In this document: one piece after another, positions 37,876 through 56,911 of the stretch
How the letters are laid out: every line of letters starts with the position of its first letter
How positions within the stretch are numbered: position 1 is the stretch's first letter
DNA from: Akkermansiaceae bacterium
Lineage (GTDB): Bacteria > Verrucomicrobiota > Verrucomicrobiia > Verrucomicrobiales > Akkermansiaceae
Assembly (NCBI GenBank): GCA_013041925.1
Contig: JABDRB010000003.1
Location: forward strand, 124,001 to 188,000
DNA: 64,000 nucleotides
Direction: 5' to 3'
Made by a program: the position numbers and the translations under genes
The notes under the pieces: generated by a model
Told to the model about the DNA's origin: nothing
The model's input: only the letters and a program-made list of their open reading frames with translations
Databases searched by the model: none

Positions 37876-39705
37876 ATGCACTATCGTACTTCTCCCTCAA
37901 GCACCACGGGCATGCCATCAGGCATCCCACACATTGTAGGCAACGAAACAGCGGAGCGGTTTTCTTTCTATGGAATGAAAGCCGTCCTCGCGGTCTTTAT
38001 GATCAAGTATCTTCACCTGATGAACGATACCCCTGGCACGGCCATGACCACGGCTGAAGCCACAGAAAAAATTCACACCTGGGTGGGCTGGGTCTACCTC
38101 ACCCCATTTTTTGGTGCTCTCTTGGCCGATATTTTCTTGGGGAAATACCGCACCATCATTATACTTTCGTTGGTTTACTGCGTGGGACACGCAGCGCTGG
38201 CCTTCATGGGAACACAAGGAGATGCCCGCTGGTGGATGACGGCTGGGCTGATGCTCATCGCATTAGGATCAGGAGGCATCAAACCCTGTGTTTCCGCGCA
38301 CGTCGGAGATCAATTTGGTCCAGGGAACTCCCACCTCCTCGCCAAGATTTTCAACTGGTTTTACTTCTCGATCAACCTAGGTGCCATGCTCTCGGCCTTA
38401 CTCACCCCATGGCTCATGGAGTGGTACGGGCCGCACCTAGCTTTTGGCGTCCCAGGAGTCCTAATGGCTCTTGCCACACTTGTATTTTGGATGGGTCGAA
38501 ATCGATTTATCCACGTGCCCGCTGGCGGCATGAGGTTCCTTAAAGACTTGGGGAAAAAAGAAACTTGGAAAACGTTGCTGTTCCTCGCTCCCCTTTACTT
38601 GTTCCTCGCCATCTTCTGGTCCTTGTTTGATCAAACCGGAACCACACTTATTTTCCAGGCTCAGGACATGGACCGCAACTTACTAGGAACTCATTGGCTT
38701 CCGTCCCAACTCCAATCATTGAATTCCCTCTTCGTCCTCGCGTTCATCCCCATCTTCACCTACCTCATCTATCCCGCCATTTCGAAGATATGGAAACTTA
38801 CCCCGCTGCGCAAAATTGGCATCGGACTTTTTGTCATGGTCATCGGCTTCTCCGTAGTTGCTGTTACCCAAACACTCATCGACTCAGGACAAACACCAAA
38901 CATCATCTGGCAAGTGGTCGCCTACGCCCTACTCACCTCATCAGAGGTCATGGTCTCGATCGTTGCCCTTGAATTTGCCTACACCCAAGCACCTCGCAAC
39001 ATGAAATCATTGGTGATGTGCTTTTATCTCGGCTCCGTAGCCGTCGGTAATTTCTTCACCGCCGGTATTAACAACCATATCCAAGTGCCCGCCATCACAC
39101 TCGAAGACCGCCAATCTCACGCAGGATTCGATCAACTTGCCGGCACCTCCGATGACATCACCCTCAAAGAGGGTGAAATCCACTCACCCTGCTATCAACA
39201 ACTCAAAGAAAGCGCGGATGCCATCAAACACATTTACCACATCAAGGGAGAACTACCATCGAACCAAAACGGATCACCCGCTATGGCTGCCGTCACTGAC
39301 CCATGGGGCAATCAGCTTCGATACACACGCCTCAACTCACGAACAGCCCGAATATCCTCAGATGGCCCTGATCAACAATACAAAACCCAATGGGATCTCG
39401 GCGTGACCCTCACCCTGCCCGAACCACCCAAAGAAAAAACAGACTCATGGGCCGACACCTTCCGCCCAGATTCGACATGGCTAGAACGCCGCAAACAAAC
39501 ACTCGGACTAGAAACCAGCAAAAACGTATCAGGTGACGATGACCAACCCCGCATCCAAACCAACTACTATGCCGGAGGAGGGAGTCAGATGGAGGGAGCC
39601 AGCTACTTCTGGTTTTTCACGAAACTGATGCTCGCCACGGCCATCATTTTCATCCCCTACGCCATCTATTACAAAAAAGACAAACCGCAGGATGATACGA
39701 AGTGA
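37876..39705 (+). CDS. POT-family proton/peptide symporter with a pseudopilin-like periplasmic insertion
   Basis: This 609-residue protein is a proton-dependent oligopeptide transporter. Family motifs are GNETAERFSFYGMKAVLAVF in helix 1, FGALLADIFLGKYR after helix 2, and FNWFYFSINLGAM. It has the usual membrane helices up to about residue 398, then an unusual soluble stretch of about 170 residues (403-575) before the last helix (577-599). The insertion carries TDPWGNQLRYTR (474-485) and ISSDGPDQQ (493-501), a pair of motifs typical of GspG-type pseudopilin globular domains. By topology it should be periplasmic. Transport of di- and tripeptides is inferred from the family. Part of a run of genes on the plus strand. 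Confidence 0.9.
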   Translation: MHYRTSPSSTTGMPSGIPHIVGNETAERFSFYGMKAVLAVFMIKYLHLMNDTPGTAMTTAEATEKIHTWVGWVYLTPFFGALLADIFLGKYRTIIILSLVYCVGHAALAFMGTQGDARWWMTAGLMLIALGSGGIKPCVSAHVGDQFGPGNSHLLAKIFNWFYFSINLGAMLSALLTPWLMEWYGPHLAFGVPGVLMALATLVFWMGRNRFIHVPAGGMRFLKDLGKKETWKTLLFLAPLYLFLAIFWSLFDQTGTTLIFQAQDMDRNLLGTHWLPSQLQSLNSLFVLAFIPIFTYLIYPAISKIWKLTPLRKIGIGLFVMVIGFSVVAVTQTLIDSGQTPNIIWQVVAYALLTSSEVMVSIVALEFAYTQAPRNMKSLVMCFYLGSVAVGNFFTAGINNHIQVPAITLEDRQSHAGFDQLAGTSDDITLKEGEIHSPCYQQLKESADAIKHIYHIKGELPSNQNGSPAMAAVTDPWGNQLRYTRLNSRTARISSDGPDQQYKTQWDLGVTLTLPEPPKEKTDSWADTFRPDSTWLERRKQTLGLETSKNVSGDDDQPRIQTNYYAGGGSQMEGASYFWFFTKLMLATAIIFIPYAIYYKKDKPQDDTK

Positions 39706-39755: not shown

Positions 39756-40577
39756 ATGCCCGCCACGTTAACCGATTCACACTGCCACCTTGCCTCACAT
39801 AAGTTCTCAACCGAAGAACTTGATGCCGTCATTACTCGCGCTCATGAACATGGCGTCACACGTATGGTCACCCTCGCCACATGTTTGGATGACTGCCCTA
39901 CCAACCTCAAAATCGCCGATAGCCACCCAGAAGTTTTTGCCTGCGTAGGGATCCACCCGTGTGATGTTCACGAAACTCCCGATGACTACCTGAACTCACT
40001 CGAAGCGTTTGCCCTCCACCCACGCTGCGTCGCCATCGGTGAAACTGGACTCGATTACTACCACCCAGCACCCGACGGCTGGACTGATGACGCCTACCGC
40101 AGCCGACAGCGTGATTTCCTCGATCAACACTTCAACCTAGCCGCCTCGCTGGGGAAAAATATCGTGATCCATACTCGAGACCAATCCGGTGATGCCTCCC
40201 TGCAAGACGCTCTCACTCTTTATCGCAAACACGCCCATCAAGTCCGTGCCGTCTTTCACTGTTTCCCTTTCGACATGGAAGCCGCTCAGCCGATCCTCGA
40301 CCTCGGCGGCCTAGTTTCATTTACAGGGATCGCCACGTTTAAAAACGCTCCTGTCGTCATCGATACCGCCAGCCGCTGCCCAGCGGGTTCTTTTATGGTC
40401 GAAACCGATGCCCCCTATCTCGCGCCCGTCCCCCACCGAGGCCAACGCAACGAACCTGCCTTCACTCACTATACAGCTAAAAGCATCGCCCATGCTCGGG
40501 GTGAAAGCCTCGATGACCTTGCCCAACACACCGAGATGACCGCAGAAACGTTTTACCAATTCCCGACAGCCAGTTAA
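39756..40577 (+). CDS. tatD: TatD-family metal-dependent hydrolase
   Basis: This 273-residue TIM-barrel metalloenzyme of the TatD family has 3'-5' exonuclease activity in known members. Metal ligands are TDSHCHL (His-X-His), IGETGLDYY (Glu), VIHTRD (His), FHCF (His) and ETDAPYLAP (Asp). The slightly extended region around 110-120 is a normal variation. It follows the POT transporter gene by 50 b on the same strand. The exact substrate is not known from sequence. Confidence 0.92.
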   Translation: MPATLTDSHCHLASHKFSTEELDAVITRAHEHGVTRMVTLATCLDDCPTNLKIADSHPEVFACVGIHPCDVHETPDDYLNSLEAFALHPRCVAIGETGLDYYHPAPDGWTDDAYRSRQRDFLDQHFNLAASLGKNIVIHTRDQSGDASLQDALTLYRKHAHQVRAVFHCFPFDMEAAQPILDLGGLVSFTGIATFKNAPVVIDTASRCPAGSFMVETDAPYLAPVPHRGQRNEPAFTHYTAKSIAHARGESLDDLAQHTEMTAETFYQFPTAS

Positions 40578-42488: not shown

Positions 42489-43046
42489 ATGGCCACCAAA
42501 AAAAAGACCGCAAAAAAGAAAGCCGCTCCACGCAAGGCAAAAAAAGCCGCAGCTAAGCGCGCTCCTAAAAAGACCGTCAAAAAAGTGACCAAAAAGGTCG
42601 CCAAGAAAAAAGCCCCAAAAAAGCCTGCGCCTAAAAAATCGGCGAAGAAGGTAACCAAGAAAAAGGTAACCAAAAAGGCCAAGAAGGTAGCTAAGAAAAA
42701 GGTCGCCAAAAAGGCCAAGAAGGTAGCCAAGAAAAAGGTCGCTAAAAAAGCCAAGAAGGTCGCCAAGAAAAAGGTCGCTAAAAAAGCTAAGAAGGTAGCC
42801 AAGAAAAAGGTCGCTAAAAAGGCCAAGAAGGTAGCCAAGAAGAAGGTCGCTAAAAAGGCCAAGAAGGTCGCCAAGAAGAAGGTCGCTAAAAAGGCCAAGA
42901 AGGTCGCCAAGAAAAAGGTCGCTAAAAAAGCCAAGAAGGTCGCCAAGAAGAAGGTCGCTAAAAAAGCCAAGAAGGTAGCCAAGAAAAAGGTCGCTAAAAA
43001 GGCCAAGAAGGTGGCTAAGAAGAAAACCGCCAAAAAGCGCAAGTAA
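42489..43046 (+). CDS. Lysine-rich histone H1/Hc2-like DNA-binding protein
   Basis: This 185-residue protein is almost only Lys, Ala, Val, Thr and Pro and has no globular domain. It resembles the lysine-rich tail of histone H1 and the chlamydial Hc2 protein, which compact DNA. Residues 1-61 are irregular, with MATKKKTAKKKAAPRKAKK and APKKPAPKK. Residues 62-181 are ten identical copies of the 12-mer KKAKKVAKKKVA (the last has T for V), and the end is KKRK. It is preceded by a 199-b A/T-rich region with no gene and followed by a terminator. The role as a nucleoid protein is inferred. The number of repeats probably varies between strains. Confidence 0.9.
   Translation: MATKKKTAKKKAAPRKAKKAAAKRAPKKTVKKVTKKVAKKKAPKKPAPKKSAKKVTKKKVTKKAKKVAKKKVAKKAKKVAKKKVAKKAKKVAKKKVAKKAKKVAKKKVAKKAKKVAKKKVAKKAKKVAKKKVAKKAKKVAKKKVAKKAKKVAKKKVAKKAKKVAKKKVAKKAKKVAKKKTAKKRK
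42672..43031 (+). repeat. Ten tandem 36-base coding repeats in the histone-like gene
   Basis: Each 36-b unit encodes the same 12 residues. The copies differ at several third positions, for example GTA/GTC and GCC/GCT, so the DNA copies are not identical while the protein copies are. Confidence 0.9.
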
Positions 43047-43853: not shown

Positions 43854-44708
43854 CTACCTATAAATTTCGCCCGTAATAGGAGCCGCTGGGATAATGGCCC
43901 TAAAAACGCCTACCGAACGCCCTGAATTAGTCCCAGGATTAGCATTATAGAGCGCAAAAATATGGGTATGACCGCGTCCATCGAGCCTGACTGCGGTGTT
44001 ATAGATGATTTTTTGACGCCTCCCATACTGGGCGGCGATCCGATATAGCTCCCCCGCATGGGCTCGTTTGTAGGAAATGGTTTTCATGGGCGCAACAGAA
44101 GCAACCTCCCCCCCAAAGGCATGCAACACCGTGAATCGAGACAGGTTTTTTAAGATAAGTTGTTTTCCAAGCAGGTTTTTTGATGTCAGGGAAATGATGT
44201 TCACCCACGGCGGCTGCATCCAAGGGCGTGGTCCACTTGATGACGCTGTCAGGAAAACCACCCTCCGGCTACCCTCGTCAGCAGCGGGTAGACTGACATA
44301 TTTTTGATACCCCCCGAAATCTGGTAATTTTTGGTAAAGCGTAAGCACTTTTCCCGCAGAGATCCGCTTCAACGCACTCACGCTGTTCAAGGCAACGCTC
44401 CATGATTGCCACTCCGCCACCTCATCACTGGCCGACTTCTCTTGATAATAGAGTGTGGCTGGAGGTATTTTACCGGGCTGAGCTAACATCATGACTGGGC
44501 CATCACCCGAGGGCTGATCCATATATCGTCTTGGGGGTTGAGCTCCGAGCGCAATGATCGTCATTTCTGTGCGCGGCTTCATTCCCTCATTCGCATCACT
44601 ATTTTTAATTTCAGTCTTGGTTACCGCATCGCCCCTCACAGCGATGATCACGGACAGCATCATAACCAACCATGGGCGAGATCGGGTGATGTTTTGCTTA
44701 TATTTCAT
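43854..44708 (-). CDS. Exported protein coupled to the Verru_Chthon A gene
   Basis: I do not recognise this 284-residue protein. It starts with a basic segment and a signal peptide (WLVMMLSVIIAVRGDA), then a beta-rich mature region with YYQEKSASDEVAEWQSWSVALNSVSALKRIS, RRVVFLTASSSGPRPW and IFALYNANPGTNSG. The ATG at 44708 overlaps the stop of the Verru_Chthon A gene by 11 b, so it is very likely made with it and may be its partner in the periplasm. A longer open frame (to 44753) would overlap more and lacks a better start. Confidence 0.7.
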   Translation of the reverse strand: MKYKQNITRSRPWLVMMLSVIIAVRGDAVTKTEIKNSDANEGMKPRTEMTIIALGAQPPRRYMDQPSGDGPVMMLAQPGKIPPATLYYQEKSASDEVAEWQSWSVALNSVSALKRISAGKVLTLYQKLPDFGGYQKYVSLPAADEGSRRVVFLTASSSGPRPWMQPPWVNIISLTSKNLLGKQLILKNLSRFTVLHAFGGEVASVAPMKTISYKRAHAGELYRIAAQYGRRQKIIYNTAVRLDGRGHTHIFALYNANPGTNSGRSVGVFRAIIPAAPITGEIYR

Positions 44709-47700
44709 CGGGACTGAGCCAGCGCTGGGCTTTAATGTTGAATTTCCTTCCAAATCTTCGATTCACCTCACTGAGCTGACCCACCGTATACTCCCCCGTC
44801 GCATGATCGATGCTGAGCGGAACATCCGTGGCGGCATTGGCATCCCTATTTGATCGGCTTCGGACTCCCGCATTCACATACTTCGGAATACGTTCGACAA
44901 CCACCTCCATCCACGCGCGGGCCATCACGGCATCACCATCCTTCGACTCCCCATACGTCCGGATGGTAAAGGTATCGCCCCGCACGGCCAATGAGGGCGC
45001 AAGTGGTTCAAGGATGTCGCCTTGGGTCAAAAACCCAGGCAACCCCCACGCCTTACTGAGCGGCTGAGATGTCGTATAACCGCCCCCTGATTCATAGCGA
45101 TAACTCTCTTTGAAGTCACCGAGGTTATGATCAGATTCACCACCACCATCGACCACTGCCGTAGAGAGGTATTGTGAGAGCATGCCAAACCGTTCATTCA
45201 ACCCCGAAGCCTCAATCGCGGCGTCGATGGCTCCCATGTGAGAGCTTGCATTCTGTGTATCGCTGAGGCGTCTGTTGACAAAATCTGCGATGGAGACAAA
45301 GGGTCCTCTTTTCTTCACCTCCTTGACAATATTCTTAGCCAAGCTCCTTACTTCATCGTTGCTAAGTTGGCGCGATCCGATCCACGCATCAGGATGGTCG
45401 GGCTCGGCGTTACCTGTGCTACCAGCTCTGCGGGGTCTGCGGTAACGGGCGAAGGAAACCACATCATCACCGAGTTCACCCCTTGCCAGGGGTCGATTCT
45501 CCCCCAAGCCCCCCGATAGAAATGCCGTCCACGCCTCCACAGAGGTGGAATTAACATTGAATGCCGCCCTGTTTTTTAGAAACTCAGCATTTTTCCAAAA
45601 CGCAATATTGACGCCGTCACATGCCGACAGCATCTCGACAACGTCCTCCAGATTTTTACCAGCTTCATAATTGAACTGATAACGACGGTTCCACAGTGGC
45701 TTGTCATTGCGGGGGTCCCAGTCAAATGTGCGGGTATCAGCACTCAGCGGCATACCTGAAATAAAGTGATGGTCCCACAAGTTATGGTTCACCTCATAGG
45801 CGATATCGTAGGCAAGCACATCGTCTTGGGATGTCATTGTCACGCCATTCACCATACGTGTTGCTGCGTGGCTCCCCAGCTGTAGCAACCCTTGTGAATC
45901 CGTTTGTTTGGCGTAGGCGCCGTGATGAAAACCCGCTTTTGATCCGCCGATCAAATAATCCCACCGCGTGTCCACAGCAGCGCCAAATGAGTGACCAAGA
46001 GAAACATCATGCGCGGTGCTCACGGACGGCGCATGCATATCCCTCAAGGAATGGCCCACCACATAACTTGGGCTCCATGAATAGGGGCTTAACATCGCAT
46101 GGCGCAAGGTAGCTAATGACAGCAGACCGTATTCTTCTGAAGGTAGATCAAACAAAACCACCTGCGGGCTGAAGGGAAAGGAGACCGCTGCGCCAAAGGG
46201 GTTTTTAACAAACGCATGACCTGAGGCATTAAGCCCTGGTGCGTCATTGATATCCTGAGGAGAATATGGGGAAAACTGAAGCAGCCACGACCCCATACTG
46301 TGCATAAACCAGCGCTCGGCACACTGACTTGCGGGCGACCTCGTTGTGAGTTGGGCTCGCACATTCCAGTTGGCGATCGGGCAAACATTATAGACCATAT
46401 GGTCCGCCCCCCATTTAAACTTTCGCAGTGGCGAGTCGAGTGATTCTTTGGTCGACTCGTCCAACCAGAGCATTTTGGCGCCCACCTGATGGGCGTCGGG
46501 AGCATCTTTGAGGGGGGCCTCTTGAAAGGTTTGTAAGCTTTGAAACCCTGGAGATCGCTGATTGGCTGACCCCCACTGACTCCCTGGGTAGGCGAAGTAA
46601 GAAGTGGGGCTAGCTCCTCCGGCACCATTATTGATCAGTTGCAGGGTGGGATGATCAAAGCTCTCCGTCAGACTGGCAAGCGAATGAGCGACGCCCGCTT
46701 TAAGGACAAAGGGAAAACTCTCTACCTTCCCCGCCGTCCGCATGACCACCTCAGGCTGATAATCAAACACACGAGCTAGATCAATTTCATCAACAAGTGC
46801 ATCACTGAGCTCACTCCACCTGTCACCTCGCGGCACACCTTGGTCGTCAAGACTCGTGTAATTCTGAATTTCGTAGGTTTGCGACCTGTCGTGGTCAAAA
46901 TAAAAATGATCTATGCCTTGAGGAGACGATGAACTCAGAATGTTCGCTGAAACGGCAATCGGCTGATAGGATTGTAACCTCACACCTCCTGATTCGATGT
47001 CTGCTAGCTGACCCTTGGGCGAGAACACATGGCATTCACCCGCAGCGAGCGATGTGGGTTCTAAGGTAAAAGCCAGATAGCGGCATGGTGGAAATGGATT
47101 GACCCGCATCTTATAGACATCACCTCCCACATATCCCCCTTTTTTAATCCATCGGGAAAAAAGGTGGCTGGGGTCGTTTGCGTGGTTCGATTTCAGATCA
47201 TTCACATGATCCTCCTCGACAAAAAAGTGGATTCCATGATCTAAACCATAAAACGGATTAGGCATCAGCACTGTCAATCCCGAGGTTTTCAGCGTCCTAT
47301 TATATGGGTTCCACAGGCAAACACGCGGGATGATATGTGTCCTGATTCTTTGCTCGTGATGTGAAAAATAATAATGCCAGCGGCAATCGGTCATAACCGG
47401 ATGAATTTTGGGGGCCGACTCAGCCCATTCGCCGGCATTAAAACACACACCATCTGATATCCCGTGCGGCCAATGGCTCGCCGGCCGCATCCGCATCCCA
47501 GACTGCGATGCAAAACAAACCTCCGCCTCAGCCAACTGAGTATGCATATGTTGTGCCCAATCCCTCAATGCGCCCAATGATGGCCCCAAAACCCCATGCT
47601 CCGGCCCGGGAATGATAGGAAAAGTCGATGAAAAACTATGGCTCGATACACCCTCGATCATGGCAAAATCAACAGACGCTTGGCGCTTGTGCGACAGCAG

Positions 47701-48654
47701 AAGCGGCGTAAGATCTGTGCGCAATCCGCCTATCAGTGTATTCACAAACAACCCGGGCGAATAGGTCGTGAAGTGATGATAATGCTCGCGAAAGGCAGCA
47801 CGTAGGGGTTCAGGATGCTCCTGCACCAGTGACGCCGTAGCGATACTGAGCATTTTCCCACGGTGATTTAATGCATCCTGAGTCAAGCTAGCGTAAGGAG
47901 CGTCACCATTCGACTGTAAAACTAGCGCTGGGTTTTCACGTGGAGATGCCTCAAATGAGGCGCCGACATGACGGACGTCAAACAAGGGATCGACAGATGC
48001 TTTTTGGTTATTATCGGAGACATACCAAGCACAGGCCCCCATTCCTTGTAGATCGACTTTTTCGACCAACACGCGGTTTTTATGATAATCCTCCAAGGGC
48101 ATGGCATCGCCAAGTGCTCCCCTGCCTACGATCTCGACCACATGATCGCGCTTGGGGTCCAGCGTGGCGCATACATCAAGCTCCGTCGACCTTTGACTCA
48201 CAAGCCATGCACGGTGAAGCTCCTTCCTCCAAGCTCCATGATGAAGCCCAGCCAATGTGTGTCTAAGGTCTTCATACGCACCTGACCTTGAGTAGGGTGA
48301 GTTTCCAGCATCAGACGTCGGAGCCTTACCTATCACAGGCCAATCGACATCGCCCGATTGATACGTTGTCGACCACACACCGAGCCAGTTTCTGTTTTGC
48401 AGGCAGCGAGAAGATGTCGCATCTTCAAGAATCGACGCCCGAGCCGTAACACATCGGTCAGGCCCTGCATGTTTTTGAAGTTGATTGATCGCCAACATGA
48501 GTGCGATCCGTGCGTTGGCTCTGGCTGTGGACTGATGACGTTCACGGGACAAGGCCTTCAGCTCAACAGCACTCAACGTGAGCATCGCCAAGGCCGTCAT
48601 CACAAGTAACGCCATCACCGATACCGTCGCCACCAAAGCAAAACCAGAACGCAT
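44698..48654 (-). CDS. Verru_Chthon cassette protein A-like large exported protein
   Basis: This 1,318-residue protein begins with a pilin-like hydrophobic helix (SGFALVATVSVMALLVMTALAMLTLS) followed by a charged helix (SRERHQSTARANARIALMLAINQLQKHAG). That pattern marks the A protein of the Verru_Chthon cassette, known from Verrucomicrobium and Chthoniobacter genomes. The rest is a long mixed region of unknown structure. It ends with a segment describing ordered secretion-like features (LRSLAKNIVKEVKKRGPFVSIADFVNRRLSD). The ATG at 48654 is preferred to one at 48684. Protein A normally occurs with B, C and D genes carrying pilin-like starts; none is seen here. Function is unknown, perhaps in a pseudopilus-like secretion or surface system. 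Confidence 0.85.
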   Translation of the reverse strand: MRSGFALVATVSVMALLVMTALAMLTLSAVELKALSRERHQSTARANARIALMLAINQLQKHAGPDRCVTARASILEDATSSRCLQNRNWLGVWSTTYQSGDVDWPVIGKAPTSDAGNSPYSRSGAYEDLRHTLAGLHHGAWRKELHRAWLVSQRSTELDVCATLDPKRDHVVEIVGRGALGDAMPLEDYHKNRVLVEKVDLQGMGACAWYVSDNNQKASVDPLFDVRHVGASFEASPRENPALVLQSNGDAPYASLTQDALNHRGKMLSIATASLVQEHPEPLRAAFREHYHHFTTYSPGLFVNTLIGGLRTDLTPLLLSHKRQASVDFAMIEGVSSHSFSSTFPIIPGPEHGVLGPSLGALRDWAQHMHTQLAEAEVCFASQSGMRMRPASHWPHGISDGVCFNAGEWAESAPKIHPVMTDCRWHYYFSHHEQRIRTHIIPRVCLWNPYNRTLKTSGLTVLMPNPFYGLDHGIHFFVEEDHVNDLKSNHANDPSHLFSRWIKKGGYVGGDVYKMRVNPFPPCRYLAFTLEPTSLAAGECHVFSPKGQLADIESGGVRLQSYQPIAVSANILSSSSPQGIDHFYFDHDRSQTYEIQNYTSLDDQGVPRGDRWSELSDALVDEIDLARVFDYQPEVVMRTAGKVESFPFVLKAGVAHSLASLTESFDHPTLQLINNGAGGASPTSYFAYPGSQWGSANQRSPGFQSLQTFQEAPLKDAPDAHQVGAKMLWLDESTKESLDSPLRKFKWGADHMVYNVCPIANWNVRAQLTTRSPASQCAERWFMHSMGSWLLQFSPYSPQDINDAPGLNASGHAFVKNPFGAAVSFPFSPQVVLFDLPSEEYGLLSLATLRHAMLSPYSWSPSYVVGHSLRDMHAPSVSTAHDVSLGHSFGAAVDTRWDYLIGGSKAGFHHGAYAKQTDSQGLLQLGSHAATRMVNGVTMTSQDDVLAYDIAYEVNHNLWDHHFISGMPLSADTRTFDWDPRNDKPLWNRRYQFNYEAGKNLEDVVEMLSACDGVNIAFWKNAEFLKNRAAFNVNSTSVEAWTAFLSGGLGENRPLARGELGDDVVSFARYRRPRRAGSTGNAEPDHPDAWIGSRQLSNDEVRSLAKNIVKEVKKRGPFVSIADFVNRRLSDTQNASSHMGAIDAAIEASGLNERFGMLSQYLSTAVVDGGGESDHNLGDFKESYRYESGGGYTTSQPLSKAWGLPGFLTQGDILEPLAPSLAVRGDTFTIRTYGESKDGDAVMARAWMEVVVERIPKYVNAGVRSRSNRDANAATDVPLSIDHATGEYTVGQLSEVNRRFGRKFNIKAQRWLSPDEI

Positions 48655-48847
48655 TCTATCAACAACCAACAACCCAACAAACATATTACTGATAGAACTA
48701 TCAGAACAAAATACAATTTATCAAGAACCAATTACACTCCGGTCATCCACCCCTCATCCAAACCGCCTTGGTGCCCGTCAATCTCCACACCTCATGGAAT
48801 TCATTTTTCATGATGGTAATTATTAAAAACCCTTGTAAAAAAAGGGC

Positions 48848-49603: not shown

Positions 49604-50632
49604 TCAGCTTCTAAGCTCACACTCCTGCAGGCTCATCGCCTGCGCGTAGTCGGCTTCACTCAGGCAACAAGGGTCTGCCGCCACCCAGTGGTCTTTTTCG
49701 ATTTCAACCAGTGACAGATCCATGCCGATGGTTGACTCGTAGAGCGGATGGTTGATGCGGTGCCCAAAGGCACTACCCGCCGGAGGATGGATTGGTGATG
49801 GAATTTCCCCTTCGAGGTGGGCACGATGTTTCGGTGCCGTGGGATCAGGTTCAGGTATCGCTGAGATCAATGCCTTGGTGTAGGCATGTTTCGGGTTTTG
49901 ATAAATCGTATCGGCATCGGCGAGTTCAACAATTTTCCCCAGATACATCACCGCGACACGATCCGAGATATGTTTCACCACCGCCAAATCATGGGCGATA
50001 AAGAGATAGGCGAGGTTTAACTCCTCTTGAAGATCAAGCAGCAGGTTGAGCACCTGGCTTTGCACCGATACATCCAGTGCTGAGACGGGTTCATCGAGCA
50101 CAATCAAATCAGGGTTTAATGCCAACGCGCGGGCAATCCCGATGCGCTGGCGCTGGCCACCGGAAAACTCAAACGAAAACCTCTGGGCGGCCGACTTAGG
50201 CATCCCCACTCGATCAAGAAGCTCCTCCACCATCTCACGCCGAGTCGCCTTGGTTCCCACGCCCTGCACCTCTAATGGCTCTGAAATAATCTGCCCCACG
50301 GATAACCGTGAGTTGAGCGACTCCGCAGGATCTTGAAAAACCATCTGCATATTCCGGCGGATGGGACGCAACTGCGACTGAGACAGGTGGGTGATCGGCT
50401 GACCTTCAAATACCACCGACCCCGCCGTAGGGTTGAGGAGACGGACAATACTCTTACCCAGCGTGGATTTTCCACATCCAGACTCACCGACCAGACCGAG
50501 GGTTTCCCCGCGGCCAATCGTGAGCGACACCCCATCGACGGCTTTCACCGCAGCCACCTGACGCGAGAACACACCGCCTTTCACGGGGAAGTGCATTTTA
50601 AGATCGCGGATATCTAGAATAGGATCGTTCAT
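49604..50632 (-). CDS. oppF: Peptide ABC transporter ATPase, OppF-like
   Basis: This 342-residue ATPase has Walker [11 protein letters not shown]-loop [11 protein letters not shown], signature [15 protein letters not shown] and Walker [16 protein letters not shown]. The C-terminal oligopeptide domain, where OppD/OppF proteins usually carry an iron-sulfur or zinc Cys set, is degenerate here ([18 protein letters not shown]), with Cys only near the end (ADPCCLSEA). It starts 3 b after the OppD-like gene stop and would pair with it. It powers import of peptides by one or both of the permease sets in this locus. Confidence 0.93.
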
Positions 50633-50635
50633 CGG

Positions 50636-51634
50636 CTAATCAGTGGATTCAGATTTGAGTTCAACACACACCGGGCAGGCCTCTACCCAGTGGTCCTTAG
50701 AGATTTCTATCCATGGTGCTCGTTTTTCCAATGTCTCCCCTGTTCGTTCCATGCGCTGGCAGAATCGGCAGCCAGGCACAAAGTCCTTGATGGCGGCCAC
50801 CTGCCCCTCGATGGTGTTGAGCTTTGACTTACGTGGCGTGGAGAGTGTTGGGATGGCATTGAGCAGCCCCTTGGTATAGGCGTGCTGGGGTGATGCATAC
50901 AACTCCTTCACCGGCGCTCGTTCGACGACCCTCCCAGCATACATCACCACCACCTCATCACAGTGACCCGCAATCACACCCAGGTCATGGGTGATCAGAA
51001 TCGTCGACATCCCCATTTCATTTTGGAGATCCTCCATAAGTTCAAGAATCTGTGACTGCACGGTGACGTCGAGCGCCGTTGTCGGCTCATCCGCGATCAG
51101 AAGATCCGGTTTGCAGGCGAGGGCAATAGCAATGACGACGCGCTGCCTCATACCACCTGACAGCTGGTGGGGATAATCCATGATACGACGTTCAGGAGAT
51201 GGGATACCTACCTTATCGAGCAGGTCGATTGACTCCTTCAACGCATCACCTTTACTCAAGCCACGGTGAAGAATCAGGGGCTCACTAATCTGTTTACCAA
51301 TACGATGCACGGGATTGAGCGCCGTCATCGGCTCCTGAAAAATCACGCCGATCTCACCACCGCGCACCTCATGCATCCGTTCGAGACTTGCAGCACGAAG
51401 ATCCTGCCCTTTAAAAATAACTTCTCCTCCGAGGATGTGTCCCATGGGCTTGGGAAGCAGCCTCACGATCGACATCGCGGTCACGCTCTTGCCACAACCT
51501 GACTCACCCACGATACCGACGGTCTTCCCTTTGGGAACACGAAAAGAAACACCATCGACAGCACGCAACCACTCACCATCATCCATGCGGAACGCGGTGA
51601 TCAACTCCTTGACCTCCAATACATTTTCACTCAT
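50636..51634 (-). CDS. oppD: Peptide ABC transporter ATPase, OppD-like
   Basis: This 332-residue ATPase has Walker [11 protein letters not shown]-loop VIFQEPMTALNP, signature LSGGMRQRVVIAIAL and Walker B DLLIADEPTTALDVT. The C-terminal domain keeps the Cys motif (FVPGCRFCQRM with CPVC near the end), as in DppD/OppD-type proteins. Its ATG overlaps the stop of the substrate-binding gene by 8 b. It is the first of the OppD-OppF pair. Confidence 0.94.
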   Translation of the reverse strand: MSENVLEVKELITAFRMDDGEWLRAVDGVSFRVPKGKTVGIVGESGCGKSVTAMSIVRLLPKPMGHILGGEVIFKGQDLRAASLERMHEVRGGEIGVIFQEPMTALNPVHRIGKQISEPLILHRGLSKGDALKESIDLLDKVGIPSPERRIMDYPHQLSGGMRQRVVIAIALACKPDLLIADEPTTALDVTVQSQILELMEDLQNEMGMSTILITHDLGVIAGHCDEVVVMYAGRVVERAPVKELYASPQHAYTKGLLNAIPTLSTPRKSKLNTIEGQVAAIKDFVPGCRFCQRMERTGETLEKRAPWIEISKDHWVEACPVCVELKSESTD

Positions 51635-53789
51635 CGCTCACCCCCTCCCCATCAGTGTTTAAAGGATGCCCCCTTTCGGATTCGCCCTCGGAGCTCGGAA
51701 TCCCATCTTTATAAATATCAATCACCTTCTGAACCTCAGGAAATTTCTCGCCCGAGCGCATGGCCGACTCCGTTTGTTTTTTCATATCTTCATCAATCCA
51801 GAGGACGTAACTCTCAAGGGGTTCGTAAATAATAGGCACGTTGAATGGGGTCTGTTTCGTATCGGGCCATCGCACCCAGCGCCATGCTCCGATCCTTACA
51901 AAGTCACTCACCCACCCTGGCGAAAACAATGCCTCGTCGCGGATTTTCTGCTGCACCGCCCATGCGTTTTTTCTAACTTCAGCCACCGTGCGGGCGTAAC
52001 GCACGCCTTTACAATACCGGTCCATTGCGTCGTCAGCATAGCTGTTGATGTTATTCGTCTGAGGTCGCGGTTCACCCTGCGCGTTATAGGCCGTTTTCGA
52101 GAAAAAGAATTGGTAATACCGTGGAAAGGGAGGCGTTGCACCCCACCCCCATATCACCATGTCGTGCTCCTTGTTCATCACCGTTTTATAAAAAACCGTC
52201 GGTTCCCGACCATCAGCACGCAGCTCCATACCCACTTTTTTTGCCTCCTCCTTGAGAATCGCAACTACCTTGGGGTAGTAGGCGACATTGGCGTAACTCA
52301 TATTCACGGCTAGACGCTCACCCGTCGGTTTCCGTAACACCCCATCCGGTCCCTCTTCCGTATATCCCGCCTCCGCAAACAACGCACGCGCCTTACTGAC
52401 CGAAAACTCCCTCGCCTTGATATCTGGGTTGGTAAACTCTCCATAGCCTTCACTAAACTGCTGCAACCTTGAATAGTCGCCTCGGAAAACCACGTCGATC
52501 ACCTTCTGCCAGTGGAGCGCATGCGCGATGCCTTGCCTAGCCTTAAGGTCCTTAAGAATCGGGCGGTGTGTATTTAAATACGCCCCCCTCGGCACACGCG
52601 GATACTGGGTGTAAAATTTATAACGTTCAATGTATCCGTCGAACACGGGCTTGATCTCGGACTTCTCATACCAGTAATTCGGGCGCGTCAAACCAAATAC
52701 ATCCAACTGACCAGCACGGAACAACTCGAAGGCTTTGGATTCATCTCGGATCGTGGTATAAACCAGCTTATCTGGATTAAAGCGGTGCCGGTAATACTTC
52801 TTATCCTTAGCCCACCAGTCTTTGGCACGGGTCAGCGTGACTGATACACCTTTCACAATATCTTTGTCGTTCACGTAATACGCACCGGTATGCGGTGCCA
52901 CCTTCCATTGGTAACGGTCCACATAGTCCGCCCCATAATCGACGTAAAAATGCGGCGCCGCTGGCGAGATACTCGCGTGTATCGGCATCAACGGTTTCGA
53001 CTCCGGTAAGCTAATCGAGAGATACCTGTCGCCATAGCTGACCATCTGCGCAAATTGCTCTCTGAAATACTGCTTTTGATACGGGGCAGACACATGGTCA
53101 GAGACACGCACATAGACCGCGATCATAAAATCCTCTGCCGAAATAGCATACCCATCGTTATATCGGGCATCCGGGTCGATTTCAAAATAAACGCTGCGAC
53201 CGTCAGCACTCACCGCCCAGCGCCGAGCTACCGCGGGAATCACCTGCGAGGTTGTTGGGTGAAGCCCCACAAGCCCAAGCTCCAACTCGTCATAAATCCG
53301 GCTCCGAAAACTATTATTGGACTCCTTGCCAAATGGCCTGACCGTCGCAGGAAACTGGGAAATAAAATAACGAAACACCCCACCTTTTATTGCCCTAGGG
53401 TCACCGATCTCGGGTTGGTCCATACCATCTTCCCAACGCAAACCGTCCGGCATCTCCTCTGGTTTTTTAAACGCAAAATAATCACCCAGCGACTGGCGGT
53501 ATTCAATCCGCGCCAGCTCACGTTTTGTCTCTTCCAGCGTGCTTACCAGATGATGCCGTGACTCATCATCCGCCGTTGCCATCTCCTCTTGGAGACCAAC
53601 CACCTGCTTATGCACCCGTGCATGTTCACCCGCCAGCCAACTTTTGATATATGCGTTATACTTGGGCACAAACGCCTTGAACCCTAAACGGCGCTCAACC
53701 ACCTCCGACTCGTCACCACACGAGTGCAGACCGAGAAGCATCACAGGTAAAGCCAGCAGGCGCAGAAGGTGGTAAACTCGAGCGAACAT
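51627..53789 (-). CDS. Family 5 solute-binding lipoprotein, YejA/OppA-like
   Basis: This 720-residue lipoprotein has a signal peptide with lipobox (LLGLHSC, Cys near 24), a coiled, charged segment (about 40-105), and the long family 5 binding-protein domain with AIKGGVFRYFISQFPATVRPFGKESNN and VYFEIDPDARYNDGYAISAEDFM. The start resembles YejA, the large binding protein for microcin C and antimicrobial peptides. Its ATG shares one base with the upstream OppC-like stop (TAATG). It is longer than usual (about 600) because of the N-terminal helical stretch. Confidence 0.88.
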   Translation of the reverse strand: MFARVYHLLRLLALPVMLLGLHSCGDESEVVERRLGFKAFVPKYNAYIKSWLAGEHARVHKQVVGLQEEMATADDESRHHLVSTLEETKRELARIEYRQSLGDYFAFKKPEEMPDGLRWEDGMDQPEIGDPRAIKGGVFRYFISQFPATVRPFGKESNNSFRSRIYDELELGLVGLHPTTSQVIPAVARRWAVSADGRSVYFEIDPDARYNDGYAISAEDFMIAVYVRVSDHVSAPYQKQYFREQFAQMVSYGDRYLSISLPESKPLMPIHASISPAAPHFYVDYGADYVDRYQWKVAPHTGAYYVNDKDIVKGVSVTLTRAKDWWAKDKKYYRHRFNPDKLVYTTIRDESKAFELFRAGQLDVFGLTRPNYWYEKSEIKPVFDGYIERYKFYTQYPRVPRGAYLNTHRPILKDLKARQGIAHALHWQKVIDVVFRGDYSRLQQFSEGYGEFTNPDIKAREFSVSKARALFAEAGYTEEGPDGVLRKPTGERLAVNMSYANVAYYPKVVAILKEEAKKVGMELRADGREPTVFYKTVMNKEHDMVIWGWGATPPFPRYYQFFFSKTAYNAQGEPRPQTNNINSYADDAMDRYCKGVRYARTVAEVRKNAWAVQQKIRDEALFSPGWVSDFVRIGAWRWVRWPDTKQTPFNVPIIYEPLESYVLWIDEDMKKQTESAMRSGEKFPEVQKVIDIYKDGIPSSEGESERGHPLNTDGEGVSDE

Positions 53790-55411
53790 TATTTGTAATA
53801 GGTAAATTTTTTCGGGTCAAATGCCTCACGCACAGCCTCTCCGATGAAGGTGACAAGGATAAGCAGGGAGACGAGGCAAAGGAACGAAGAACTGACCAAC
53901 CAAGGGGCGGACAAATTCCCCAGACCGTCCTTCAGCAGGGTCCCCCAGGTTGCATATTTGGGCGGCAAACCAAATCCGAGATAGTCGAGCGAGGTCAAAC
54001 CCATCACCAAACCAGAGACCGAAAAGGGCACCAAGGTCACAAGGATGGCCACCGCATTGGGCAAGATATGTTTAAAGATAATACGAGGCGTCGAGCAACC
54101 GATGATACGGCTTGCCGCCACGTAATCCCTCGCCTTTTCCTTCAGCGCCGCCGTGCGCATCAAGTAGGTCATCCCCATCCAGCTAAACAGAATTAAAATC
54201 AACAAAATCACCCCCAAACCCGACTTTTCCTTGATCGGCACAGGCACGGAAGCGCTGACAATGATAATAACAAACAGGAAAGGGATATTGGAAAACACCT
54301 CGATCATCCTCTGGACAAACAGATCAAACACCCCCCCAAAGAAACCCATTAACAAACCGATCGTGATCCCGATCAGATAGATCGACGGTATATAAAACAA
54401 CGCCGCCTTAAAGTTCACCTGCAAGCCACCGTAAAGATATGCCAGCACATCATATCCCTGCGGCGTCGTCCCCAGTAGGTGCCCCATCTTAAAACTCGGG
54501 GGTGCTGGAGCATAATAGACAACGCTCAACTCAGTGCTGCCCTGACTTAAGAAGGCCTCCATCTCACCCTCACCATTCCAACTCTCTGAAACCAGCGACC
54601 CCTGACTGAACTGCGCCCCGTAAACGCGGTTATTCTCACGATCCCATCCGTCCGCGGCGCCGTCCTTAAGCCCTTCACGGTAACGGTAACGCAGGTGCAT
54701 TCTACCGGGGTCGTCGAGGTCATAAATCTTCGCCGCCAATCCCGAGTAAGGCCGATCTGAACCAGGGAAACATAACAACCCATCGTCCCTCTTGTCTAGT
54801 TCCTGAGTAGGAACGGTCACCGTATCCTGCGTCGGCGCATAAGGCACAACTGGCATCAACACCCAGTTGCTCGGGTTCTCATTCTGAAACTTCTGTTTCA
54901 ATCGCCGGTAGTTAGGCGCCGCTTCGGCGGCATCGCCCGATAAACCGAAATGCTTCCCCTTGAATATCACCCCACCAGCCTCACTAGGCTCGTAAAACCG
55001 CTGCAATGCCGGTGAATATATTTTCCCGTCATACTTCACGAGAACAGCTTCATTTCCGACCAGCAAATGATCCAGCGACGCGATCAACGCGAGAAAACCA
55101 ATCATGACAAACGCGCGGTGCCCACGTTTGATCGAGCAAAACCGATCGATCCGCCGTTGAGTAATCGGTGTGAATTGAAATCCTTGGGGGAATTTCATCA
55201 GCAACATCACACCACACACCAATGAAAACATCACCGCCAGCCAACCGAACCACAAAAACGGATGATCTCCCGCCCCCCAGTTCAACCATTGCAATTCCCG
55301 GCTGACATCAAACGCCCAACGCAGCGTCGGCAACTTGAGAGAAAACCATTCCCCCAACGATGATATCACCGCACCTGCCACCATTAACCAGCCAATTTTG
55401 CGAAATATCAT
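53789..55411 (-). CDS. Peptide ABC transporter permease, OppC/YejE-like with large insertion
   Basis: This 540-residue permease has three N-terminal membrane helices, then a large periplasmic region (about 115-300), then the usual BPD_transp_1 domain: LLGTTPQGYDVLAYLYGGLQV, an EAA loop (TAALKEKARDYVAASRIIGCSTPRIIFKHILPNA) and a C-terminal TM set. The big insertion makes it like YejE. It is the second gene of the set, 2 b after the OppB-like gene stop. Confidence 0.88.
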   Translation of the reverse strand: MIFRKIGWLMVAGAVISSLGEWFSLKLPTLRWAFDVSRELQWLNWGAGDHPFLWFGWLAVMFSLVCGVMLLMKFPQGFQFTPITQRRIDRFCSIKRGHRAFVMIGFLALIASLDHLLVGNEAVLVKYDGKIYSPALQRFYEPSEAGGVIFKGKHFGLSGDAAEAAPNYRRLKQKFQNENPSNWVLMPVVPYAPTQDTVTVPTQELDKRDDGLLCFPGSDRPYSGLAAKIYDLDDPGRMHLRYRYREGLKDGAADGWDRENNRVYGAQFSQGSLVSESWNGEGEMEAFLSQGSTELSVVYYAPAPPSFKMGHLLGTTPQGYDVLAYLYGGLQVNFKAALFYIPSIYLIGITIGLLMGFFGGVFDLFVQRMIEVFSNIPFLFVIIIVSASVPVPIKEKSGLGVILLILILFSWMGMTYLMRTAALKEKARDYVAASRIIGCSTPRIIFKHILPNAVAILVTLVPFSVSGLVMGLTSLDYLGFGLPPKYATWGTLLKDGLGNLSAPWLVSSSFLCLVSLLILVTFIGEAVREAFDPKKFTYYK

Positions 55412-55413
55412 GT

Positions 55414-56754
55414 CTAGTGGAATTTAATACGGGGGTCGATCATGGCTACGATGATATCTGAGAGAATATTGCCCACGATCATGAGAAAGGCTGCGATCGT
55501 GAGGGTTCCCATGATCACCGACTGGTCTCTGTTCTGAATCGCTTGGAATTGAAGCAAACCGAATCCTTGAATATCAAAAACCGTTTCCACCAACATACTT
55601 CCACCTACAAACATAGTAATCAATCCACCCAAGCTCGTGGCAATCGGGATAAACGAATTTCTAAAGGCGTGTTTAAACACAGCACTTCGAAAACTCACCC
55701 CCTTGGAAACTGCCGTCCTCACATAATCGGCCGCCAGATTGTCCATCAGGTTGTTTTTCATCATCATCGTCGTGTAGGCAAATCCTCCCACGATATAACA
55801 ACTCAGCGGCAGCACCGTGTGGTGTGCCAAATCAAGCATCTTCTGCCAAATCGTCATCCCTTCAATATCTGGACTCATCAAACCAAACAACGGAAACCAT
55901 CCCACTCGGGCACCCAGATAGACCAACAGAATCGCACCCAGAGCAAAACCCGGAATCGAATACCCGACAAAGACCATCACCGAGCTGGCATTATCCAAAA
56001 ATGTCCGGTGCTTGATCGCCTTCACAATCCCCAACGGAATACATACCGTGTAAATAATGATGGTCGAGAGTAGACCAAAATAAACCGCAATAGGAACACG
56101 CTGGAGAATCATGTCCGACACCTTATCCTGAAACGTCGATGACCTCCCCATATCCCCCTGCAGCATCCCTGAAAATTTTGTTTTATAAACCACCGCGCGA
56201 TAGGGATTAGACGGAGCTTTACTCACATCGCGTTGATTCCTCCGTGCCCACCGATCCGCCCGATCCTGCGGTGAATCAACCCTGACACTCCAACCCTCCG
56301 ATGAAACCCTCTCCCCCGTATCTAAGAAAACAGCGGCATCGAGGTCGTTCTTGTTGACCTTGACCTGACGGCCAGACCCCTTGAGCACCACCAAAGTTTC
56401 ATTTTCCGCATCTTGGATCACCTCGGCGCCAATGACATCCTCACCACCTTTCTCGATATCAGCCTTACTGATCAAACGTTCCCGAGGGAGCATGCCCAAC
56501 CACTGAATATAAGCCATCAAAATCGGCTTATCGTATCCATATTCCTCCTCCAACTCCTCCAGTTGCTCATCACTGAGACCACCCTGGCTTTCATCACCTG
56601 ACGCCCTCGAGTTCTCATCACTCTGAGACGCACGCTGCATGGCTCGCTCCATCGGACTCCCAGGCATAAATCTTGTCAGGGCAAACACGATCATGGTCAC
56701 CCCTAGCAAGGTGACCGGGACAAGCATAAACCTTCTGATGAAATAAGCCTTCAT
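55414..56754 (-). CDS. Peptide ABC transporter permease, OppB/YejB-like with large insertion
   Basis: This 446-residue permease has the usual first helix (FMLVPVTLLGVTMIVFALTRFMPGSP), then an insertion of about 130 residues in the first periplasmic loop, rich in charged residues, and a normal C-terminal part with GMLQGDMGRSS, an EAA loop (NLMDNLAADYVRTAVSKGVSFRSAVFKHAFRNS) and helices to the end. The ATG at 56754 is preferred to a longer frame. It is the first gene of the minus-strand transporter, 157 b from the divergent binding-protein gene. Confidence 0.88.
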   Translation of the reverse strand: MKAYFIRRFMLVPVTLLGVTMIVFALTRFMPGSPMERAMQRASQSDENSRASGDESQGGLSDEQLEELEEEYGYDKPILMAYIQWLGMLPRERLISKADIEKGGEDVIGAEVIQDAENETLVVLKGSGRQVKVNKNDLDAAVFLDTGERVSSEGWSVRVDSPQDRADRWARRNQRDVSKAPSNPYRAVVYKTKFSGMLQGDMGRSSTFQDKVSDMILQRVPIAVYFGLLSTIIIYTVCIPLGIVKAIKHRTFLDNASSVMVFVGYSIPGFALGAILLVYLGARVGWFPLFGLMSPDIEGMTIWQKMLDLAHHTVLPLSCYIVGGFAYTTMMMKNNLMDNLAADYVRTAVSKGVSFRSAVFKHAFRNSFIPIATSLGGLITMFVGGSMLVETVFDIQGFGLLQFQAIQNRDQSVIMGTLTIAAFLMIVGNILSDIIVAMIDPRIKFH

Positions 56755-56911
56755 AAGGAAACAACGAACTCTCCAGCATTCTAGAGAGCGCAGGGGTGTT
56801 TTATGATACAGAAACCAACGACGCAAGTCTCCCGTTTACAAATTGATGACAGATCAATTTCCACGCAAAAAAAAGCTCCACATTCTCCATAAAACAGCCA
56901 ACTTTCCCTGC

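Follow-up and report, generated by a model that had tools for sequence, protein, structure and literature searches.

Transporter Core and Insertion Boundaries

The window analyzed here, a continuous stretch of 64,000 nucleotides, carries on its forward strand (37876–39705) an open reading frame that, from the ORF list and its translation, encodes 609 residues and that Pfam, the predicted structure, and structural matches identify as a POT (PTR2) proton-coupled peptide symporter with 12 membrane helices. Genes for an MscS-like channel and a HAD hydrolase precede it, and a TatD gene (39756–40577, E 3.5e-69) follows. The match to PTR2 has an E of 3.9e-80 and a score of 270.1 bits against a curated cut-off of 27. 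A full-length AlphaFold2 model, built from a 70-row alignment (A4), has a pLDDT of 92.9 and a pTM of 0.92; it contains 12 long membrane helices by DSSP and has the 12-helix MFS fold of the solved POTs. The best structural match to this model is human PepT2 (7pmy, Z 43.9, 2.0 Å over 411 residues), in a near tie with PepTXc (6ei3, Z 42.9) and PepTSo (4uvm, Z 42.6), and the last two are also the nearest relatives in the PDB by sequence (PepTSo, 2xut/4uvm, E 3e-133; PepTXc, E 2.5e-119). Glu24, Glu27, Arg28, and Phe29, together with Gly133, Gly134, Ile135, and Lys136, are invariant in 70 of the 70 rows of A4, and Pro137 is present in at least 90%; we take these to be the ExxERF motif of TM1 and the GGIKP motif of POTs. 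Proton-coupled uptake of di- and tripeptides is the function predicted from these sequence features.

The core differs from that of PepTSo between TM6 and TM7, where the family of the window protein has a gap of ~8 residues (profile positions 218 to 227) as compared with ~80 in PepTSo (chain 210 to 292). The HA/HB helix hairpin is absent from this part of the window protein (38491–38559, residues 206–228), and the model has no helix pair there. Two POTs from other families of the phylum (L205 and L206) have extra hydrophobic stretches, judged by eye, at about TM6–TM8, and apparently more than 12 membrane helices; from the size of the gap their additional TM7–TM8 length had been considered as another domain, a candidate that was rejected because the sequence suggests extra hydrophobic helices.

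In the model, TM11 (residues 374–402; 38995–39081) and TM12 (residues 575–598; 39598–39669), the last two membrane helices, are separated by an insertion of 172 residues (403–574; 39082–39597; all on the forward strand), delimited by the model and by alignment to transporters that do not carry it. The initial annotation had placed ~170 residues (403–575) at this position in lieu of a normally short loop, and both points hold: the motifs that it quoted are present, and the corresponding loop has 12–15 residues in 15 aligned non-carrier POTs of the same phylum (L020–L034) and 12–17 residues in non-carriers of both phyla considered below, as against ~130–245 residues for the inserts. POTs, like other MFS transporters, have both termini in the cytoplasm, and in the 12-helix model the TM11–TM12 loop is therefore periplasmic, as had also been proposed.

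The insertion was characterized in an alignment of 74 rows (A3), consisting of the window insert and 73 inserts from 80 loci. These loci are the best 80 of 515 relatives of an insert-bearing query and are hence biased to carriers; rows that contain stops (L066, L100, L135, and L144) or Ns (L088, L124, and also L144) or that reach a contig end (L108) were left out of A3, and A4 additionally omits L075, L097, L106, and L109, which are near copies or truncated at the start. The models, structural matches, and hhalign delimit a GspG-like α/β core (39193–39414) that comprises helices 440–457 and 463–471 and strands 482–485, 490–495, and 508–513. Within it lies the DPWGN motif (residues 475–479; 39298–39312), whose positions are occupied by Asp in 70/74, Pro in 43/74, Trp in 60/74, Gly in 70/74, and Asn in 42/74 rows. 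Beyond the core, a WLERR segment (39478–39492) begins a helix at 535–542, and a closing strand (561–567) with the pair Gly567-Gly568 (39556–39579) leads into TM12; Trp535, Gly567, and Gly568 are each invariant across the 74 rows. The DPWGN, SxGPD, and GxD...DD columns are common to the window insert and the 73 inserts from other genomes, drawn as they are from the best 80 of 515 relatives, and the resemblance to GspG is therefore not that of one protein by chance.

Predicted Fold and Relationship to GspG

An AlphaFold model of the insert alone has a pLDDT of 86.8 and a pTM of 0.76, so that structure prediction returns a folded domain. A Foldseek search with it gave nothing significant, the top match being a pilin with an E of 0.24. 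With VIA-align, rows 1–21 of the 50 listed are all pilins or pseudopilins, led by PulG (1t92, Z 7.3, 3.2 Å, 86 residues) and EpsG (4lw9, Z 7.3, 2.5 Å, 77 residues), and the first unrelated structure has a Z of 3.8. As to a pair of Ig-like lobes, the observation is that pilins head these 50 listed rows, and a fold outside the list may match as well. It should be noted that every Z obtained for this model is below 8, a level that is no proof by itself, and that the crystal structures of GspG homologues (Z 7.0–7.3) and the type IV pilins 4d40 and 1qve (both 7.0) score alike, so that the structural match to the predicted model does not discriminate between GspG and type IV pilins.

The sequence evidence points to GspG specifically. 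Scanned by itself, the window insert has no relevant match in Pfam (E up to 10) or NCBIfam, and against the T2SSG family (PF08334) it scores 12.4 bits, under the curated cut-off of 21. Across A3, in which the inserts come from the best 80 of 515 relatives, T2SSG is matched by 43 of the 74 (Pfam, E up to 10; best 3.7e-6) and is not matched in the other 31, and the next family is matched by 4/74; an initial set of 14 inserts had given T2SSG in 8 (best 3.3e-4). A profile of those 14 recovered no pilin from the PDB, only unrelated chains matched by chance (best E 0.18), whereas the 74-row profile is led by GspG chains (2kep, E 0.021; 3g20, 0.042; 29jd, 0.23), with 3gn9, 1t92, and 5wda lower among its ten rows and SAGA-associated factor 73 accounting for the other four. 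Comparison of the A3 profile with one of 31 verrucomicrobial GspG sequences (A5) aligns 34 columns (hhalign, 96.4%, E 1.4e-9, score 60.0); the maximum score with shuffled columns was 22.1 in the 128 of 130 controls that could be scored, two giving no result. Since this sequence evidence and the structural ranking agree, the call of a GspG-like fold in the periplasmic TM11–TM12 loop is well supported, and we regard it as very probably correct. The pseudopilin-like fold of the initial annotation is thus upheld by family profiles and predicted structure together, and its GspG-type signature stands at the level of the family; neither the window insert alone, which is under the Pfam cut-off, nor the structural match, in which type IV pilins tie with GspG, carries that assignment.

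The N terminus of a pilin, consisting of the prepilin signal and the membrane-spanning helix α1-N, is absent, and the insert starts after TM11 in the middle of the polypeptide; it is therefore described here as GspG-like and not as a pseudopilin. There is also an internal likeness, in that the first of the two calcium loops described below aligns with the second over 24 columns (hhalign, 76.5%, E 2.2e-5). In a Phycisphaerales POT (L143, 7213–7869), an earlier stretch of the insert matches positions 59–100 of the model with an E of 0.007, and this insert appears to comprise a pair of GspG-like units, one after the other, which may hint that the two calcium loops arose in tandem.

Predicted Calcium Sites

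In the pseudopilin of structure 3G20, calcium is reported to be bound by the main chain of Pro114 and Val119 and the side chains of Asp117, Thr122, and Asp125 (PMC3396595). In the predicted second site of the window insert (SDGPDQQYKTQWD, residues 495–507; 39358–39396, forward strand), assigned by alignment to these ligands, Asp499, Thr504, and Asp507 are opposite Asp117, Thr122, and Asp125 of GspG. The three columns are highly conserved in A3 (best 80 of 515 relatives), with Asp in 72, Thr in 68 (Ser in 4 more), and Asp in 72 of the 74 inserts, whereas the position of the non-ligand Asp124 of GspG is Trp in 66/74. Calcium had been named in the initial annotation as a possible ligand, and this pattern fits it well: site 2 is likely to bind the ion.

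The predicted first site precedes the helix and has no counterpart in GspG. In the window insert it reads GFDQLAGTSDD (residues 417–427; 39124–39156, forward strand) and resembles the PERCAL motif, defined as G-x-D-G-x-x-[GN]-[TN]-x-D-D and known from bacterial animal-type peroxidases (PMC3396595). Its PERCAL positions are Asp in 69/74, Thr in 58/74, and Asp in 68/74 at each of the last two, and the exact motif occurs in 32 of the 74 inserts as compared with 0 of 14,800 shuffled inserts. A looser GxD..DD pattern is found in 69/74 inserts and in 1.2% of shuffles; in L128, L132, and L137 it is the second site, not the first, that matches. The window sequence is one letter off the exact motif, with Gln for Gly at the fourth position. 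Binding of calcium by the insert itself is inferred from this conservation.

Distribution and Selection

The insertion proved to be a trait of a large clade in Verrucomicrobiota and Planctomycetota and not an oddity of one protein. Of 387 genomes from the phylum of the window, a POT was matched at E 1e-20 in 67, and matches that reach into the insert are confined to the window's own family, excluding one genus (g2); in that family the insert is matched, with an E of 1e-9 or better, in 75 of the 97 genomes. Planctomycetota, to which the Rhodopirellula genome G459 belongs, has matches at E 1e-30 in 29 of 246 genomes, 13 of them via the insert, and at these 13 loci TM11 and TM12 are 216–245 residues apart. 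One record (L123) comes from a metagenome-assembled genome labelled "Bacillota" that falls in the Planctomycetota set, and its label is therefore probably mistaken. A locus labelled "Neomarinimicrobiota" (L135) contains stops and is the sole match among 61 genomes of that phylum.

A tree of the transporter core was made with the insert columns removed (121 rows, thinned to 72 at <80% identity; 445 columns). It separates 44 carriers from 28 non-carriers by a single change (support 100/99; 100% of 200 bootstrap trees), so that the sampled carriers form one clade. The insert was probably gained once, in the ancestor of that clade, and then long retained; losses may be missed because the sampling is biased to carriers, and the insert may have passed between the two phyla by descent or by transfer. 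In close pairs, dN/dS is 0.06–0.30 for the insert (13 usable of 14 pairs) and 0.02–0.10 for the core (14 pairs). The insert is under purifying selection and is less constrained than the core. At one further locus (L019; G243:C111:233301-235111) the insert-bearing POT is split over two frames of 395 and 243 residues, by sequencing error or as a pseudogene.

Gene Neighborhood

Neighboring genes were surveyed with 84 of 104 ORFs selected at 26 of the best 80 loci (of 515 relatives), some of which are probably spurious. Among the matches listed, which cover 25 of 91 families, TatD occurs in 6 ORFs, FabH in 4, and a secretin in 2. Both secretins belong to Phycisphaerales loci (L138:9270-13631 and L143:9271-12096), where each is the second ORF past the POT gene on the opposite strand. 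Peptidases are represented by two ORFs chosen by eye, of type M24 at L077 and M16 at L089; each is seen at a single locus, and there is therefore no neighborhood pattern. No common neighbor at the 26 loci names a partner for the insert.

Not far from the POT gene, the window itself contains another system for the uptake of peptides, an oligopeptide-type ABC importer cluster of five ORFs (49604–56826, reverse strand), three of which were scanned and match SBP_bac_5, ABC_tran with oligo_HPY, and BPD_transp_1. A protein of 1328 residues (44698–48684, reverse strand) has by eye a prepilin-like hydrophobic N terminus and matches no Pfam family at E 1e-5, and a lysine/alanine repeat protein of 185 residues (AKKVAKKKVAKK; 42489–43046, forward strand) is histone H1-like by appearance.

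Discussion

We give a probability of roughly one-half to the view that the window protein is a POT in which a GspG-type globular loop domain, stabilized by calcium, acts as an accessory beside the transport path. The periplasmic loop between TM11 and TM12 would have acquired a GspG-type pseudopilin globular domain, minus the membrane helix, and this domain would fold independently, stabilized by one calcium site and probably by a second, while the 12-helix core would transport by the usual POT mechanism. Located on the outer face beside the periplasmic mouth, the insert may serve as a docking or local-concentration device; by analogy with the mammalian transporters discussed below, we put this docking role forward tentatively.

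The conservation of the insert also bears on another account, in which it is a structural cap without a partner, its calcium sites stiffening the outer face at TM11 and TM12. The calcium ligands are among the best conserved columns, Trp535 and the Gly567-Gly568 pair are invariant in the 74 rows of A3, and the insert has diverged more rapidly than the core, observations that favor a cap. However, ~130–245 residues is much for a brace, and 12–17 residues suffice for this loop in the non-carrier POTs of these phyla; we consider this account a lesser but real possibility.

Because the domain is GspG-like, it could alternatively couple the POT to the type II secretion system (T2SS) by binding the pseudopilus or the periplasmic platform, so that uptake takes place near the products of secreted proteases. 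The insert-bearing POT and GspG occur together in 66 of the 97 genomes of the family, so that GspG is present in 66 of the 75 genomes with such a POT, 9 genomes have the POT without GspG and 9 have GspG without the POT, and neither is found in the 10 sampled genomes of genus g2; the opposite-strand secretins at both examined Phycisphaerales loci also speak for such coupling. With g2 left out, however, the 87 remaining genomes show no significant association (Fisher p 0.36). Moreover, 9 genomes with an insert-bearing POT have no GspG at E 1e-12 (four of them are 92–96% complete; these genomes are drafts, and gaps are therefore possible), secretins make up 2 of the 84 ORFs scanned at 26 loci, and the insert has no N-terminal helix of the kind needed in pilus assembly. 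Gene neighbors and co-occurrence thus provide no clear link of the insert to secretion, the secretion partner suggested in the initial annotation gains no clear support from them, and coupling to the T2SS is improbable; the accessory domain appears to work independently of it.

A role as a gate or sensor, in which binding of calcium or peptide in the periplasm alters the rate of transport, is less probable again. The C-terminal bundle of MFS transporters moves during the alternating-access cycle, and in the model the insert is joined directly to TM11 and TM12, which belong to that bundle. Against this, PepT1 and PepT2 that have been deprived of their extracellular domain are described in PMC4597091 as retaining transport with no appreciable loss. 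Least probable of all is a convergent likeness, an α/β hairpin with DPWG and PERCAL-like loops that does not derive from GspG: the sequence link covers 34 columns, the predicted fold resembles pilins as a group, and PERCAL loops are reported from unrelated proteins as well (PMC3396595), but DPWGN, the Tyr, and SxGPD are present together, with concordant order and spacing, and the fold is concordant as well.

For the calcium-stabilized accessory domain, the closest parallel is with mammalian PepT1 and PepT2 (SLC15A1/A2). These have the POT fold and an additional folded domain that faces outward, as does the window protein, and like it they have no HA/HB hairpin according to a statement on the mammalian proteins in PMC4331665. 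Their domain, inserted between TM9 and TM10, is made up of two Ig-like lobes and binds trypsin in vitro (PMC4597091, PMC4331665), whereas that of the window protein is GspG-like and lies between TM11 and TM12; in a passage of PMC4597091 its authors note that a physiological requirement for trypsin was not demonstrated. The accessory role proposed here would be analogous to that of the PepT1/PepT2 domain. PepTSo and PepTXc, in contrast, have no domain between TM11 and TM12, and PepTSo has the ~80-residue HA/HB region. With GspG (PulG, EpsG, XcpT; the major pseudopilin of the T2SS) the insert shares the predicted α/β core, DPWG, the SxGxD loop, and the Asp/Thr/Asp ligands, and it differs in having no prepilin N terminus or α1-N helix, in having mostly Trp in place of Asp124, and in having an additional PERCAL-type loop before the helix, the whole being embedded in a transporter. 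No pilin-like domain in a POT was found in the open-licence literature searched, which is weak evidence of absence; the initial annotation had called the combination, as far as known, undescribed, and to that extent it stands, although a folded extra domain in a POT as such has a precedent in PepT1 and PepT2 (PMC4597091).

Other planctomycete POTs have extra sequence between TM9 and TM10. One of 662 residues (L199; G529:C163) has ~200 additional residues with Big_9 bacterial Ig domains (E 3.8e-15). The mammalian PepT1/PepT2 domain occupies this loop too and belongs to a like general fold class, possibly by convergence. Another of 632 residues (L198; G642:C17) has a different insert of ~160 residues with no confident Pfam match.

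A 2015 review (PMC4331665) includes statements that the large extracellular domain of PepT1 and PepT2 is missing in bacterial, fungal, and plant homologues, that all POT structures then known, which were bacterial, have the HA/HB hairpin, and that the hairpin is specific to prokaryotic members. The carrier clade is an exception to this picture, being composed of bacterial POTs with a large and distinct outer domain and without HA/HB. The accessory reading can be extended to propose that the logic of PepT1 and PepT2 arose independently in Verrucomicrobiota and Planctomycetota, where a co-opted pseudopilin domain would recruit, in a calcium-dependent manner, a periplasmic or secreted peptidase or a pseudopilus. 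We regard this extension as unlikely; if a peptidase were so recruited, peptides would be made at the site of their uptake. More generally, the insertion suggests that a transporter can reuse the pilin fold as a domain in one of its loops, and the carrier clade, with one apparent gain, two phyla, and a single-gene trait, is a clean system in which to address the function of outer domains in peptide symporters.
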